A stretch of 59,596 bases of DNA from positions 1 to 59,596 of the IMG/VR virus record IMGVR_UViG_3300046006_003099. The stretch is one strand, 5' to 3'. The notes below the pieces were generated by a model. That model searched no databases. It was not told where the DNA came from and saw only the letters and a list, made by a program, of their open reading frames with translations. This document shows, piece after piece, positions 55,259 to 58,819 of the stretch (position 1 is its first letter; each line of letters begins with the position of its first letter). A program made the position numbers and the translations under genes. This DNA comes from a virus.

Positions 55259-57229
55259 TTAAACTGCCATATAATCAGAAGATTCTTTACTAGAAGGAAC
55301 ACCTCCATTTCTGAATGTACCATTTAAATGATTGATAATTGTTTTCTCAATCATAGGTTTTATAGACGCCATATCCATTTCTTTTGTAGAACCGTCAGGT
55401 GAAACTAATTCAATTCTACCTGATATATTTAAATTACCAAATTCAATTGTTGACGATGATGCCGTATTGTTACCACCAAATGCCCTATCCAACAACTTAT
55501 CTAAAGGTCCTCCTTTCTTTGCGCCAACAACATCATCCTCAGATGTAAACTTAGTTAATCCCCCACCAGATCTCGATAAAAAGTCATTATTTTCTTCTTG
55601 TGGTCCTCTATTATTCGTTGCGTCATCTTGAATTGTTCTAAGTTGTGTTAAAATATCATCTATAGATTCTGTAAAATCAATTTGATTTTTTGATAATAAT
55701 TCCTTTAAATCTTCTGATAAATTAATCTCAAATATTTTTTTAACTGTTTCACCTGAATCTAAACCTAAATTTTGTGATTGTTTTATCATGTCTTCTCTTA
55801 ACTTACCATATTGAGTTTCTTGTAATGCCGAAATCATAGTTGTAACTTGAGACTCTACTCCCTTAAATAAAGATTCCATACTTGGTCTCATTATATCTTC
55901 AGTAATTTCATAAGTATTAGATTCTGCAACATATCCTGTTTTCATCGCTTCTAAAATATTCTCTAAAATTTTGTTGGTAGTCATTGAGTTATAAGCCATT
56001 TCCATAATAGCCTCTTCCTCATTTTTAGGTGCTGCCAACATTTTTTCTGCTAAATCTACACCAATATCCTCAATACCTATTTCTTTTCCATCAAAATCTA
56101 CAACCCACTTACCATCTTTCATTTTAGCCATACTCGCTAAACCATCTCTCATATCCTCATCTTGAATATTTCCTGAAACGTTCATCTTAATGTCTTTAAT
56201 TTTTGATGATTGTCTAGCAATTTCTATCATACTATCAACATTGACACCTAATTGTTCACCAGCCGCCTTTAATTGCATTCTTGCCTCGGCAGGAAATTCA
56301 TATTCACCAGTTTCTTCATTAAACTGAATCATATTTTCAGTCATTGTCTGAACTTTCTTTGCCAACTCCTCAGGTTTGTTTCTTGCGAGATACATAGTTT
56401 CAAAAGGATCCCCAAATGCTTCTGCAACATCACCTCCTAACATTTGTAAATTTGCTACGGCTTCTATTGCTGCTTCAGGTTCATAAAACTTTTCTGCCAT
56501 ACCTAACATCTCACCTACATCCATTCTCATTTGCACTGCTAATTTAGCCATGTCAGTCATACCTTTTACCCCACCTTTAAATGACATAGTTGACATTTTA
56601 TCAAAATTATTGGATAATGTTTGTGCTACTTTACTAGCGTTTAAACCTAATTTTTGACTTTCTACAGTTAATGAATTTAACAATTTATTAGAATTATCAA
56701 CGCTCACACCCATCAAATCCATCCTTTCTAATAATTGACCAGCGCTTTGGTTGGTCAAATTTAAACCTTTAGTAAGTAAGAATATATTAGAAACTTCTTC
56801 AGGTGAAATTATTCTTGCCCTACCACTATTGTCTGCGAATTCTTCCATTATACTTTGAACATCCTGAGCCGATCCACCAAATTTTTGAATTTCAGAAGTT
56901 GCCCTATTAAATGTTTTAGTAAATTCTTGACTTCTACCTACTGATATACCTATATTTACTGCAGTACTTTTACTAGTTTCTGCTAATTTTTCCGCCCATT
57001 CATATTGAGCCTTAGAATCTGTAGCAAATTTCCTAAATTCTGTAGATATATTTTTTACTGAAAGTACTGCATCTTTTAATAAATTATTACTATCGCCAAT
57101 ATTTTTACTTACGCCAGCAGAAGACCTATCAATCTTGTCCATACTATCAGACATTTCATCTAATTTTGTATTTAGTTTATCAATCTGTTCCTGAAGGTCT
57201 TTTATGTCTTGTTCTGTAGGTGCTGCCAT
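55259..57229 (-). CDS. Tail tape-measure protein
   Basis: A 656-residue, mostly helical protein. Residues 1-50 are a coiled coil (EQDIKDLQEQIDKLNTKLDE). Long helices follow with Gly/Ala-rich hydrophobic patches (AVANLQMLGGDVAEAFGDPF) typical of tape measures. A beta-rich C-terminal piece (EFGNLNISGRIELVSPDG) probably attaches to the baseplate cap. T4 gp29 is 590 residues, so this predicts a tail of similar length if helical. It follows two or three small genes and the gp26-like gene. Confidence 0.8.
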   Translation of the reverse strand: MAAPTEQDIKDLQEQIDKLNTKLDEMSDSMDKIDRSSAGVSKNIGDSNNLLKDAVLSVKNISTEFRKFATDSKAQYEWAEKLAETSKSTAVNIGISVGRSQEFTKTFNRATSEIQKFGGSAQDVQSIMEEFADNSGRARIISPEEVSNIFLLTKGLNLTNQSAGQLLERMDLMGVSVDNSNKLLNSLTVESQKLGLNASKVAQTLSNNFDKMSTMSFKGGVKGMTDMAKLAVQMRMDVGEMLGMAEKFYEPEAAIEAVANLQMLGGDVAEAFGDPFETMYLARNKPEELAKKVQTMTENMIQFNEETGEYEFPAEARMQLKAAGEQLGVNVDSMIEIARQSSKIKDIKMNVSGNIQDEDMRDGLASMAKMKDGKWVVDFDGKEIGIEDIGVDLAEKMLAAPKNEEEAIMEMAYNSMTTNKILENILEAMKTGYVAESNTYEITEDIMRPSMESLFKGVESQVTTMISALQETQYGKLREDMIKQSQNLGLDSGETVKKIFEINLSEDLKELLSKNQIDFTESIDDILTQLRTIQDDATNNRGPQEENNDFLSRSGGGLTKFTSEDDVVGAKKGGPLDKLLDRAFGGNNTASSSTIEFGNLNISGRIELVSPDGSTKEMDMASIKPMIEKTIINHLNGTFRNGGVPSSKESSDYMAV

Positions 57230-57232
57230 TTA

Positions 57233-57379
57233 TTAAGATTTGTTTTCTTCGAAATCTTTTTTTATTTTTTCAAAATCTTTCTTTATTTTTTCAAAAATTT
57301 TCAAAATTTCGTTATATTCCGATTTAGTTTTAGAATTCTCTACAATTTTTTTTATATTTTTAGTTATATTACCTAACAT
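57233..57379 (-). CDS. Small Lys-rich coiled-coil protein (48 aa)
   Basis: ATG at 57377-57379, directly after the previous gene's TAA, and tandem TAA TAA stops before the tape-measure ATG. The protein is MLGNITKNIKKIVENSKTKS then EYNEILKIFEKIKK and a repeated KDFEKIKKDFEE, strongly helical. Tight spacing on both sides (1 and 3 nt) and the clean frame argue for a real gene. Position before the tape measure suggests a tail-assembly factor. Confidence 0.6.
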   Translation of the reverse strand: MLGNITKNIKKIVENSKTKSEYNEILKIFEKIKKDFEKIKKDFEENKS

Positions 57380-57380
57380 A

Positions 57381-57878
57381 TTATTTAGTTTCAATAATTT
57401 CAAAGGTGGTTTCTTCTTTTAAACCACTTCTAGTCTTTTCACCAGAACTAATGTATCCAAACTCATTATAAAAAAGTTGTAATTCACCGAATTGTCTTGA
57501 CCTTCTTTGTAAGGTTTCATAATATAATAATAAACCTATTCTATAGTCCCAATCATTTTTTTGTAAAATTATATAATCATCGGAAAAACCAACTACATTA
57601 AATTTTTCTTGTCCGTAAAATTCATACTCAGTTTTTTTAACTGCAGATCTTACTGACGCTTTAATTTTATAAATAAAATCAATAACAATTGAAGTGAAGG
57701 GTAAAGTTTCTTTATTCTCATCATACATAAGTCTACTTTGTATACGAGAGTTTAATATATCCATCTTTTCTTTAGTCCGTTTAATACTATCCTTAACGTT
57801 ATCAACGTCATCAGATGATACATTTTCTATAAGAAAATTTAAATATTTTACAGTATTTAAAAATTTATTGATATTCAT
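57381..57878 (-). CDS. Hypothetical tail-assembly region protein
   Basis: A 165-residue protein. The N-terminal half is helical with a possible coiled coil (DSIKRTKEKMDILNSRIQSR), and the C-terminal half is alpha/beta (GFSDDYIILQKNDWDYRIGL). It lies between the frameshift ORF (35 nt upstream) and the 48-residue gene. No family was recognised. A TATTTATA motif is 12 nt before the ATG. Confidence 0.75.
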   Translation of the reverse strand: MNINKFLNTVKYLNFLIENVSSDDVDNVKDSIKRTKEKMDILNSRIQSRLMYDENKETLPFTSIVIDFIYKIKASVRSAVKKTEYEFYGQEKFNVVGFSDDYIILQKNDWDYRIGLLLYYETLQRRSRQFGELQLFYNEFGYISSGEKTRSGLKEETTFEIIETK

Positions 57879-57912: not shown

Positions 57913-58074
57913 TTATTCTTTAGGAACTAAGTATGAAATAAAATATTTACGCATATAAGTGGGCATAATCAGAATATCTGAATATGTAAATCCCCTACCG
58001 ACTAAGAATAAAATTTCTTTTAAAAGATTTTGTTGGTGATTAGATGTCAGGCCAAAATAAGTTTTTATTGATCC
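57913..58074 (-). CDS. Frameshift extension of gp26-like protein (53 codons, +1 frame)
   Basis: This frame lies +1 to the gp26-like gene, starts inside its last 12 codons and runs 53 codons to a TAA at 57913-57915. It reads GSIKTYFGLTSNHQQ then NLLKEILFLVGRGFTYSDIL, then IMPTYMRKYFISYLVPKE. The helical, aromatic pattern with a MP-x-x-x-R motif is protein-like over its full length, and I believe it resembles short proteins next to phage gp26-like genes. There is no ATG, GTG or TTG in frame before the MPTYM ATG, which would leave only 17 residues. It is most simply read as the end of a 301-residue fusion made by +1 frameshift at 58073-58078. Confidence 0.72.
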   Translation of the reverse strand, partial: GSIKTYFGLTSNHQQNLLKEILFLVGRGFTYSDILIMPTYMRKYFISYLVPKE

Positions 58075-58819
58075 TAAGAAAGGTATTTACGGACTCTCCC
58101 CCCTGAGTCCGAGCAGTAACACTAAAGTTTATTCCTGGTTCAATATCAACAATATATTTGTTTAAACCTCTTATATCCATCAATGGTAAAGATTTTAAAA
58201 TATTGGAAATTTTAATTTTATCTCTTTCACCATCAATTGACATTATAGATCTCTCTAATCTAAGTGTAGTTTTTGAAGAAATATCAGTTTTATTTCTTTC
58301 CATTAATTCTGAATCTAATAAATCTATTTCTTCCTCATCTTTACCAGTTAAAAATCTAAATTTAATATTTTTATTACATTTTGGTAATAAAAAATCAAAA
58401 AACCCATTTTCATCAGGTTTTACTGTTAATTTTTTCTGTTCTAATTTAGTTAAATCAATTTCCCCCTCGACCACTTTTTTAGTAATTGGGTGAATAACTG
58501 GTTGCACATAATTTTCTCCAAAGGCAGAAACCCTTAAAAATAAAACTATTGCCATCCTATCACCTTCTAAAAGTAACTTATGATCAAAACCTAAATCTTT
58601 TACTTTTCTTTCAATTAAAACATCAATTAATCTACCACCCGCCAAAATATTTGGTGATGTAAGTACATTTTCATCGTATGCTGTTAAAAATTCAACTTTA
58701 ACGCTAGATTTTTTATTAGGATATAATAAACCTTGCGAAGGCAATTCTAATACATCATAAGGTACCTTATACTCATCAGGCACATAATTTGGGTCCATAA
58801 AACTTTGTCTTTCTTCCAT
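58040..58819 (-). CDS. gp26-like baseplate hub/tail-assembly protein (0-frame product)
   Basis: A 259-residue protein. VLELPSQGLLYPNKKSSVKV then DENVLTSPNILAGGRLIDVL, GDRMAIVLFLRVSAFGENY, and an FRFLTGKDEEEI middle match the phage T4-like gp26 family. The last 12 codons overlap a second, +1 frame. Normal termination gives the NLFWPDI end typical of this family. Residue 248 (Leu, CTT) is the predicted shift point. An unusually GC-rich hairpin lies upstream of it at 58090-58111. Confidence 0.8.
   Translation of the reverse strand: MEERQSFMDPNYVPDEYKVPYDVLELPSQGLLYPNKKSSVKVEFLTAYDENVLTSPNILAGGRLIDVLIERKVKDLGFDHKLLLEGDRMAIVLFLRVSAFGENYVQPVIHPITKKVVEGEIDLTKLEQKKLTVKPDENGFFDFLLPKCNKNIKFRFLTGKDEEEIDLLDSELMERNKTDISSKTTLRLERSIMSIDGERDKIKISNILKSLPLMDIRGLNKYIVDIEPGINFSVTARTQGGESVNTFLRINKNLFWPDI
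58072..58111 (-). promoter_or_regulatory. Candidate +1 programmed frameshift signal
   Basis: Minus strand: stem CGGACTC (58111-58105), loop AGGGGGGA, stem GAGTCCG (58096-58090), 11 nt, then CTT AGG A (58078-58072). CTT-AGG is the core of the Ty1 +1 site (CUU-AGG-C). A tRNA-Leu on CUU can slip to UUA because the next codon AGG is slow, and GGA follows in the new frame. Both codons read Leu. The hairpin codes for ARTQGGESV with codons (CGG, CAG, GGG, GAG, TCC) that look out of place in this AT-rich sequence. Confidence 0.65.

Follow-up and report, generated by a model that had tools for sequence, protein, structure and literature searches.

The tail assembly chaperones gpG and gpGT of phage lambda and their relatives were reportedly described by Xu, Hendrix and Duda in 2004. 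In lambda a short protein is accompanied by a long form made by frameshifting, the second frame has no start of its own, and the locus lies just before the tape measure gene (PMC5009743). Such G–T frameshifting is conserved in long-tailed phages 'except T4' (Atkins et al. review, PMC5009743). T4 has two hub assembly chaperones, gp26 and gp51 (PMC3004832), encoded by separate genes with no frameshift, and the gp51 of cyanophages lacks the first 200 residues and has about 20% of the length of T4 gp51 (Sullivan et al., PMC3037559). A +1 shift in a tail-assembly gene was judged very likely in the haloarchaeal myovirus HSTV-2 (PMC5009743). Two other +1 sites are relevant here: CUU_AGG_C of yeast Ty1 (mechanism in PMC5009743), and UCC_UUU_CGU of influenza A PA-X, where eukaryotic ribosomes slip on UUU_C while an uncommon codon occupies the A site (PMC3498833).

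In this work we analysed a virus record from IMG/VR (IMGVR_UViG_3300046006_003099, positions 1 to 59,596), the whole of which, 59,596 nt, is called the window. Its gp26-like gene is very likely a tail-assembly chaperone gene read in two ways, with a +1 slip at UUU_CUU_A giving a 'GT' form; the chaperone function itself is suggested by analogy with T4 gp26/gp51 and lambda G/GT. The parallel with lambda drawn in the preliminary description holds for the dual frames, the slippery site and the gene position: as in lambda, there is a short protein, a candidate frameshifted long form and a second frame without its own start just before the place of the tape measure gene. The locus differs from lambda in its protein family (PF12322), in the direction of the shift, +1 and not -1, and in the site, where UUU_CUU_A is preceded by a hairpin. 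It would have in common with HSTV-2 the +1 shift in a gene for tail assembly.

Sequences compared

The close-relative set consists of 42 IMG/VR loci, found by one protein scan, one DNA-pattern scan and one profile scan; with the window they make 43 sequences, of which 33 were left after removal of near-copies. A second profile used against IMG/VR gave at least 80 loci of a sister group, 73 of them distinct among the matches listed. In the tree, the window clade is a single group (100/100) that adjoins this sister group. A scan of genome contigs gave a single match, in a Prochlorococcus single-cell genome, which is insufficient to name the host, and no tRNA gene was found in the window.

Two overlapping reading frames

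The gp26-like gene (the 'G' form, 58040–58819, minus strand) encodes 259 amino acids of the PF12322 T4_baseplate / phrog_150 type and ends in VNTFLRINKNLFWPDI*. The window protein matches PF12322 with 19.7 bits (E 7.6e-4) against a curated cut-off of 24.5, while four relatives score 56–100 bits, above the Pfam cut-off; relatives also match phrog_150, and the gp26-like protein of Microcystis phage Mel-JY01 gave no match to PF12322. The gene is followed by one for a 165-amino-acid protein (57381–57878, minus strand) and one for a 656-amino-acid protein (55259–57229, minus strand) that stands at the place of the tape measure protein, an assignment made by position only; no sequence match was found between it and the tape measure protein of Flavobacterium phage immuto (L005). 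A TTG-started, Lys-rich small ORF of 56 amino acids (57233–57403) lies between the 165-amino-acid gene and the putative tape measure gene. In L005, L008 and L153 the annotated order is sheath, tube or its counterpart, gp26-like gene, extension where present, and tape measure, the annotated tape measure genes of L005 and L153 coming after the extension. The gp26-like gene is thus placed between the tail tube and the tape measure, in the window by position only.

On the minus strand, the zero-frame TAA at 58040–58042 terminates the unshifted product, and the extension in the +1 frame, LGSIKTYFGLTSNHQ...VPKE* (57913–58077), which would be reached after the shift, is open and conserved in all members of the clade. 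The +1 frame is open for 57 codons stop to stop, from just past a TAA at 58087–58089 (minus strand), two codons 5' of the slip site, to the TAA at 57915–57913. The preliminary description had found no usable start in this frame, and indeed its only two ATGs leave 17 and 13 residues, and there is no GTG or TTG in the +1 frame of the window.

Both frames are kept in 43 of 43 sequences (33 non-redundant), and they are also present in the contig of the Prochlorococcus single-cell genome. The two overlapping frames are real and conserved. A single break of frame resembles an indel, and the second frame could accordingly be taken for a decayed or sequencing-broken part of one gene; the same break is found in 43 sequences from many assemblies, with coding conserved in both frames, and its presence in the 42 loci and in the single-cell contig excludes both a sequencing indel and gene decay, so that the probability of this explanation is practically negligible. 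Among the loci examined there is no relative with the two parts in one frame. As for a clear ATG for the second frame in relatives, the other observation that would have spoken against a frameshift, the window has none that is usable, and some named relatives do have one upstream or at the junction (see below).

In 16 of the 33 sequences a +1-frame stop lies two codons before the slip site, which means that ribosomes on these messages cannot enter the +1 frame earlier, and no +1-frame stop (0/33) lies between the slip site and the zero-frame stop. In the -1 frame, stops follow right after the slip site in nearly every sequence. When the overlap is reshuffled synonymously, an average of only 17% of trials leave it open, a figure to be read with the common ancestry of the sequences in mind. 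With both frames kept, TTTCTTA invariant and no usable start, the +1 programmed frameshift claimed for this spot by the preliminary description is strongly supported, and the two frames are very probably joined in this way.

The second frame might instead be translated alone, coupled to termination at 58042 and begun by reinitiation or at a non-standard start (ATA or the CTG at 58050–58048). Throughout the clade this CTG is kept, CCTGA being present in all sequences, and in the T4-like relatives KVP40, phiN3, P-SSM2 and Yut3 an ATG lies at the junction. However, the usable stretch in the window is devoid of ATG, GTG and TTG, the CTG is explained by a Leu in the +1 frame and is replaced by CTA in L006 and L007, and separate translation leaves unexplained the TTTCTTA motif, the hairpin, and an openness of the +1 frame that begins exactly at TTTCTTA, upstream of the CTG. 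We regard separate translation as quite improbable.

Slip site and upstream hairpin

The proposed +1 slip site, TTT CTT A (UUU_CUU_A, 58075–58081, minus strand), is invariant in 33 of 33 non-redundant sequences, which have a common ancestry and do not represent 33 independent events. The TTT is as invariant as the CTT that it precedes. Elsewhere in the gp26-like gene CTT makes up about 9% of Leu codons, and TTTCTT encodes one of 51 FL dipeptides. The codon after CTT is AGA in 27 sequences, AGG in three, and AAC, ACG and ACA in one each; this phage uses AGA more than any other Arg codon. Per 1000 codons, CUU is used 8.3 times and UUA, the commonest Leu codon, 54.4 times, figures that describe the codon usage of the phage.

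These observations bear on the Ty1-like mechanism named in the preliminary description, in which slow decoding of an AGG in the A site lets the tRNA-Leu on CUU slip to UUA. The likeness to Ty1 consists in the CUU followed by A and in the +1 direction; CTT-A is invariant, and after a slip to UUA a tRNA-Leu with the anticodon UAG would pair well. The AGG is not conserved, being found in only 3 of 33 sequences while the common AGA occupies the position in 27 and AAC, ACG or ACA in three, so that a CUU followed by a slowly read AGG is not what the clade carries, and the invariant TTT would be superfluous in a Ty1-like slip. We therefore consider the latter rather unlikely, and the mechanism differs from that first named. 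The motif had been given as CTTAGGA: the location was right, and the conserved motif begins one codon earlier. Similarly, of the features whose conservation across related loci was to be expected, the hairpin and the second frame are conserved and the AGG of CTTAGG is not.

Compared with a slip on CUU before a hungry AGG, a slip of the P-site tRNA on UUU_C with CUU as the A-site codon is the better fit. To judge from the sequence, the site is of the UUU_C type with an uncommon A-site codon, the logic of PA-X, and this reading is the best one because it explains why TTT and CTT are both fixed, tRNA-Phe pairing better with UUC. Most ribosomes would terminate at 58042 and produce the short 'G' form, and a fraction would slip one base forward at UUU_CUU_A (58081–58075) and read the +1 frame to 57916, yielding a 301-amino-acid 'GT' form with a small three-helix domain. 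In the most likely step, with the uncommon CUU in the A site, peptidyl-tRNA-Phe would move from UUU to pair anew with UUC, which overlaps it, and decoding would resume in the +1 frame at the abundant UUA. The junction peptide, TFLGS, would be identical whether either tRNA slips singly or both slip in tandem. The ribosomal event, its efficiency, the exact tRNA step and the role of the hairpin are all deduced here from comparison of sequences.

The +1 frame could also be reached by a -2 slip, as used by Mu (PMC5009743), or by slippage of RNA polymerase, which the run of seven Ts of the sister group could allow. A -2 movement at ACC UUU CUU would leave both tRNAs mispaired, whereas a +1 movement offers them UUC and UUA, and the slip site of the window has no T run longer than three. 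Both routes appear highly improbable for the window.

The 5' hairpin, CGGACTC-AGGGGGGA-GAGTCCG (58090–58111, minus strand), is formed by a 5' arm at 58111–58105, a purine-rich loop AGGGGGGA at 58104–58097 and a 3' arm at 58096–58090. The perfect 7-bp hairpin 11 nt upstream of CTT reported in the preliminary description is exact, its base lying 8 nt before the preceding TTT; hairpin and slip region of the window fold at -12.5 kcal/mol. In the 28 sequences that share one register, 91.3% of cells are paired and 13 cells have changed on both sides, as in GGACTC/GAGTCC, CGACTC/GAGTCG, GGATGC/GCATCC and GGACGC/GCGTCC. The covariation score was reached by none of 500 shuffles, and slid versions score far lower. 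In 5 of 33 sequences the hairpin pairs only in a shifted or interrupted register, and the z-score in single sequences is modest (-1.5). Synonymous variation is depressed at the hairpin, even though half of the sequences have a closed +1 frame upstream, and the first loop codon is never GGT (0/33), though GGT accounts for 64.5% of the Gly codons in the window; the missing GGT points to a constraint at the nucleotide level, where the +1 frame is often closed. The compensatory changes in particular strongly support the idea that the hairpin is part of the frameshift signal. It may re-form behind the ribosome at the mRNA exit, its base 8 nt 5' of the P-site codon, and so favour forward movement. 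On paper, the purine loop could also pair with the pyrimidine slip site to form a pseudoknot.

Other roles for the loop were considered and rejected. After a -1 shift at its G_GGG_GGA heptamer a ribosome would soon run into -1-frame stops, and in the window and half of the sequences the +1-frame stop at 58089–58087 excludes a shift by +1 or -2 at GGGGGGA. In prfB an internal Shine-Dalgarno sequence lies 3 nt from the P-site codon; at about 15 nt, the G-run is too far away to act in that manner. Rfam returned a single sub-threshold antisense match, to RgsA (20.7 bits against 88.4), and a GC-rich contig with no gp26 frame around the match also carries the hairpin pattern (L019:824–841); we take both matches to be due to chance.

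The extension and T4 gp51

The folded part of the extension, or 'T' domain (57916–58053, minus strand), is confidently predicted by AlphaFold2 to form a three-helix domain (pLDDT 92.0), while the prediction for the G part alone came out poor. No significant match to the T domain was returned by Foldseek from PDB or BFVD. The extension profile of the window clade matches the sister-group extension with a probability of 98.3%, and matches the C-termini of gp51 with 88.8% (E 2.5e-6); the sister-group extension matches gp51 with only 33%, and full-length fusion profiles match it weakly.

Both gp26 and gp51 of T4 belong to PF12322. Aligned to phrog_150, gp26 goes no further than position 235, and gp51 extends to position 280 of 282. 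As at the present locus, gp26 ends where the zero frame ends and gp51 continues with an extension-like C-terminus. T4 gp51 also matches phrog_634, which in Syn9 matches a -1-frame ORF after gp26, and in the KVP40 record a small protein is annotated as resembling the C-terminus of T4 gp51. We propose that T4 may have split G and GT into two genes, gp26 and gp51, which would offer a simple reason for the 'except T4' in the rule of tail-assembly frameshifting. With some reserve, we lean towards a broader model in which a frameshift-linked gp26/gp51 pair would be ancestral in T4-type tails, by -1 in T4-like phages and by +1 in a large uncultured group, T4 being an apparent exception because a duplication left it with gp26 as the G copy and gp51 as the fused GT copy, and in which UUU_CUU_A with its close covarying 5' hairpin would be a +1 recoding signal of a new kind in bacteria. 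Such a signal, a slip site and an upstream hairpin, is compact and directly testable in bacteria. No paper joining gp26 and gp51 by frameshift was found in the literature searched, little of which was subscription-only.

Related arrangements in other phages

In the sister group the extension lies in the +1 frame in 72 of the 73 distinct loci listed, TTTTTTT is present at the FFWP end in 69 of the 73 distinct loci among the matches listed, and the upstream +1 stop can lie one codon before TTTTTTT. The same +1 shift thus appears to take place at UUU UUU U in the sister group, an independent parallel. At the gp26 end of these loci (L071–L150) the TTTTTTT homopolymer could also let RNA polymerase slip. 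The sole listed sister locus with a -1 extension (L134:2190–2260, TTC TTC TGG) may owe this to an indel in the assembly or to a shift that has changed direction.

The +1 arrangement is also found in Flavobacterium phage immuto, Microcystis phage Mel-JY01, Listeria LIS04, Bacillus SP-15 and Streptococcus GXN1, with upstream starts in the +1 frame in four of them (ATG in LIS04 and GXN1, TTG in immuto and Mel-JY01). In immuto (L005:3028–3991) the 35-amino-acid gene annotated after gp26 covers an internal part of a longer extension in the +1 frame.

A -1 arrangement occurs in Agrobacterium Atu_ph07 and a 595-kb uncultured phage, as well as in nine phages: the cyanophages Syn9, P-SSM2 and S-RIM2, and KVP40, phiN3, Astolliot, AS-szw, Yut3 and D504. 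The slip heptamer of these nine is T TTT TTC in seven and T TTT TTT in phiN3, and is absent in D504. The short 'gp51' of cyanophages and KVP40 resembles the extension described here in being a small ORF that overlaps and directly follows gp26 and is similar to the gp51 C-terminus (PMC3037559), and differs from it in its -1 frame, mostly behind U_UUU_UUC, and, in some, in a junction ATG. This ATG is present in the -1 frame of four of the eight heptamer-bearing phages (KVP40, L166; phiN3, L167; P-SSM2, L165; Yut3, L170), so that coupling or reinitiation is an alternative there, though a frameshift could work too. In Syn9 (L164:1138–1392), S-RIM2 (L172), Astolliot (L168) and AS-szw (L169), T_TTT_TTC lies just before the gp26 stop and the gp51-like -1 ORF has no junction ATG, the annotated gp51 starting at an inner ATG or being unannotated. 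A -1 frameshift has probably been missed in T4-like phages such as these four, and it would explain the short cyanophage gp51; the text of Sullivan et al. (PMC3037559) that was searched does not contain the word 'frameshift'. If the frameshift reading holds, hundreds of genomes should encode a second protein that gene callers overlook or give a wrong start; Syn9 gp26 is matched by 684 records.
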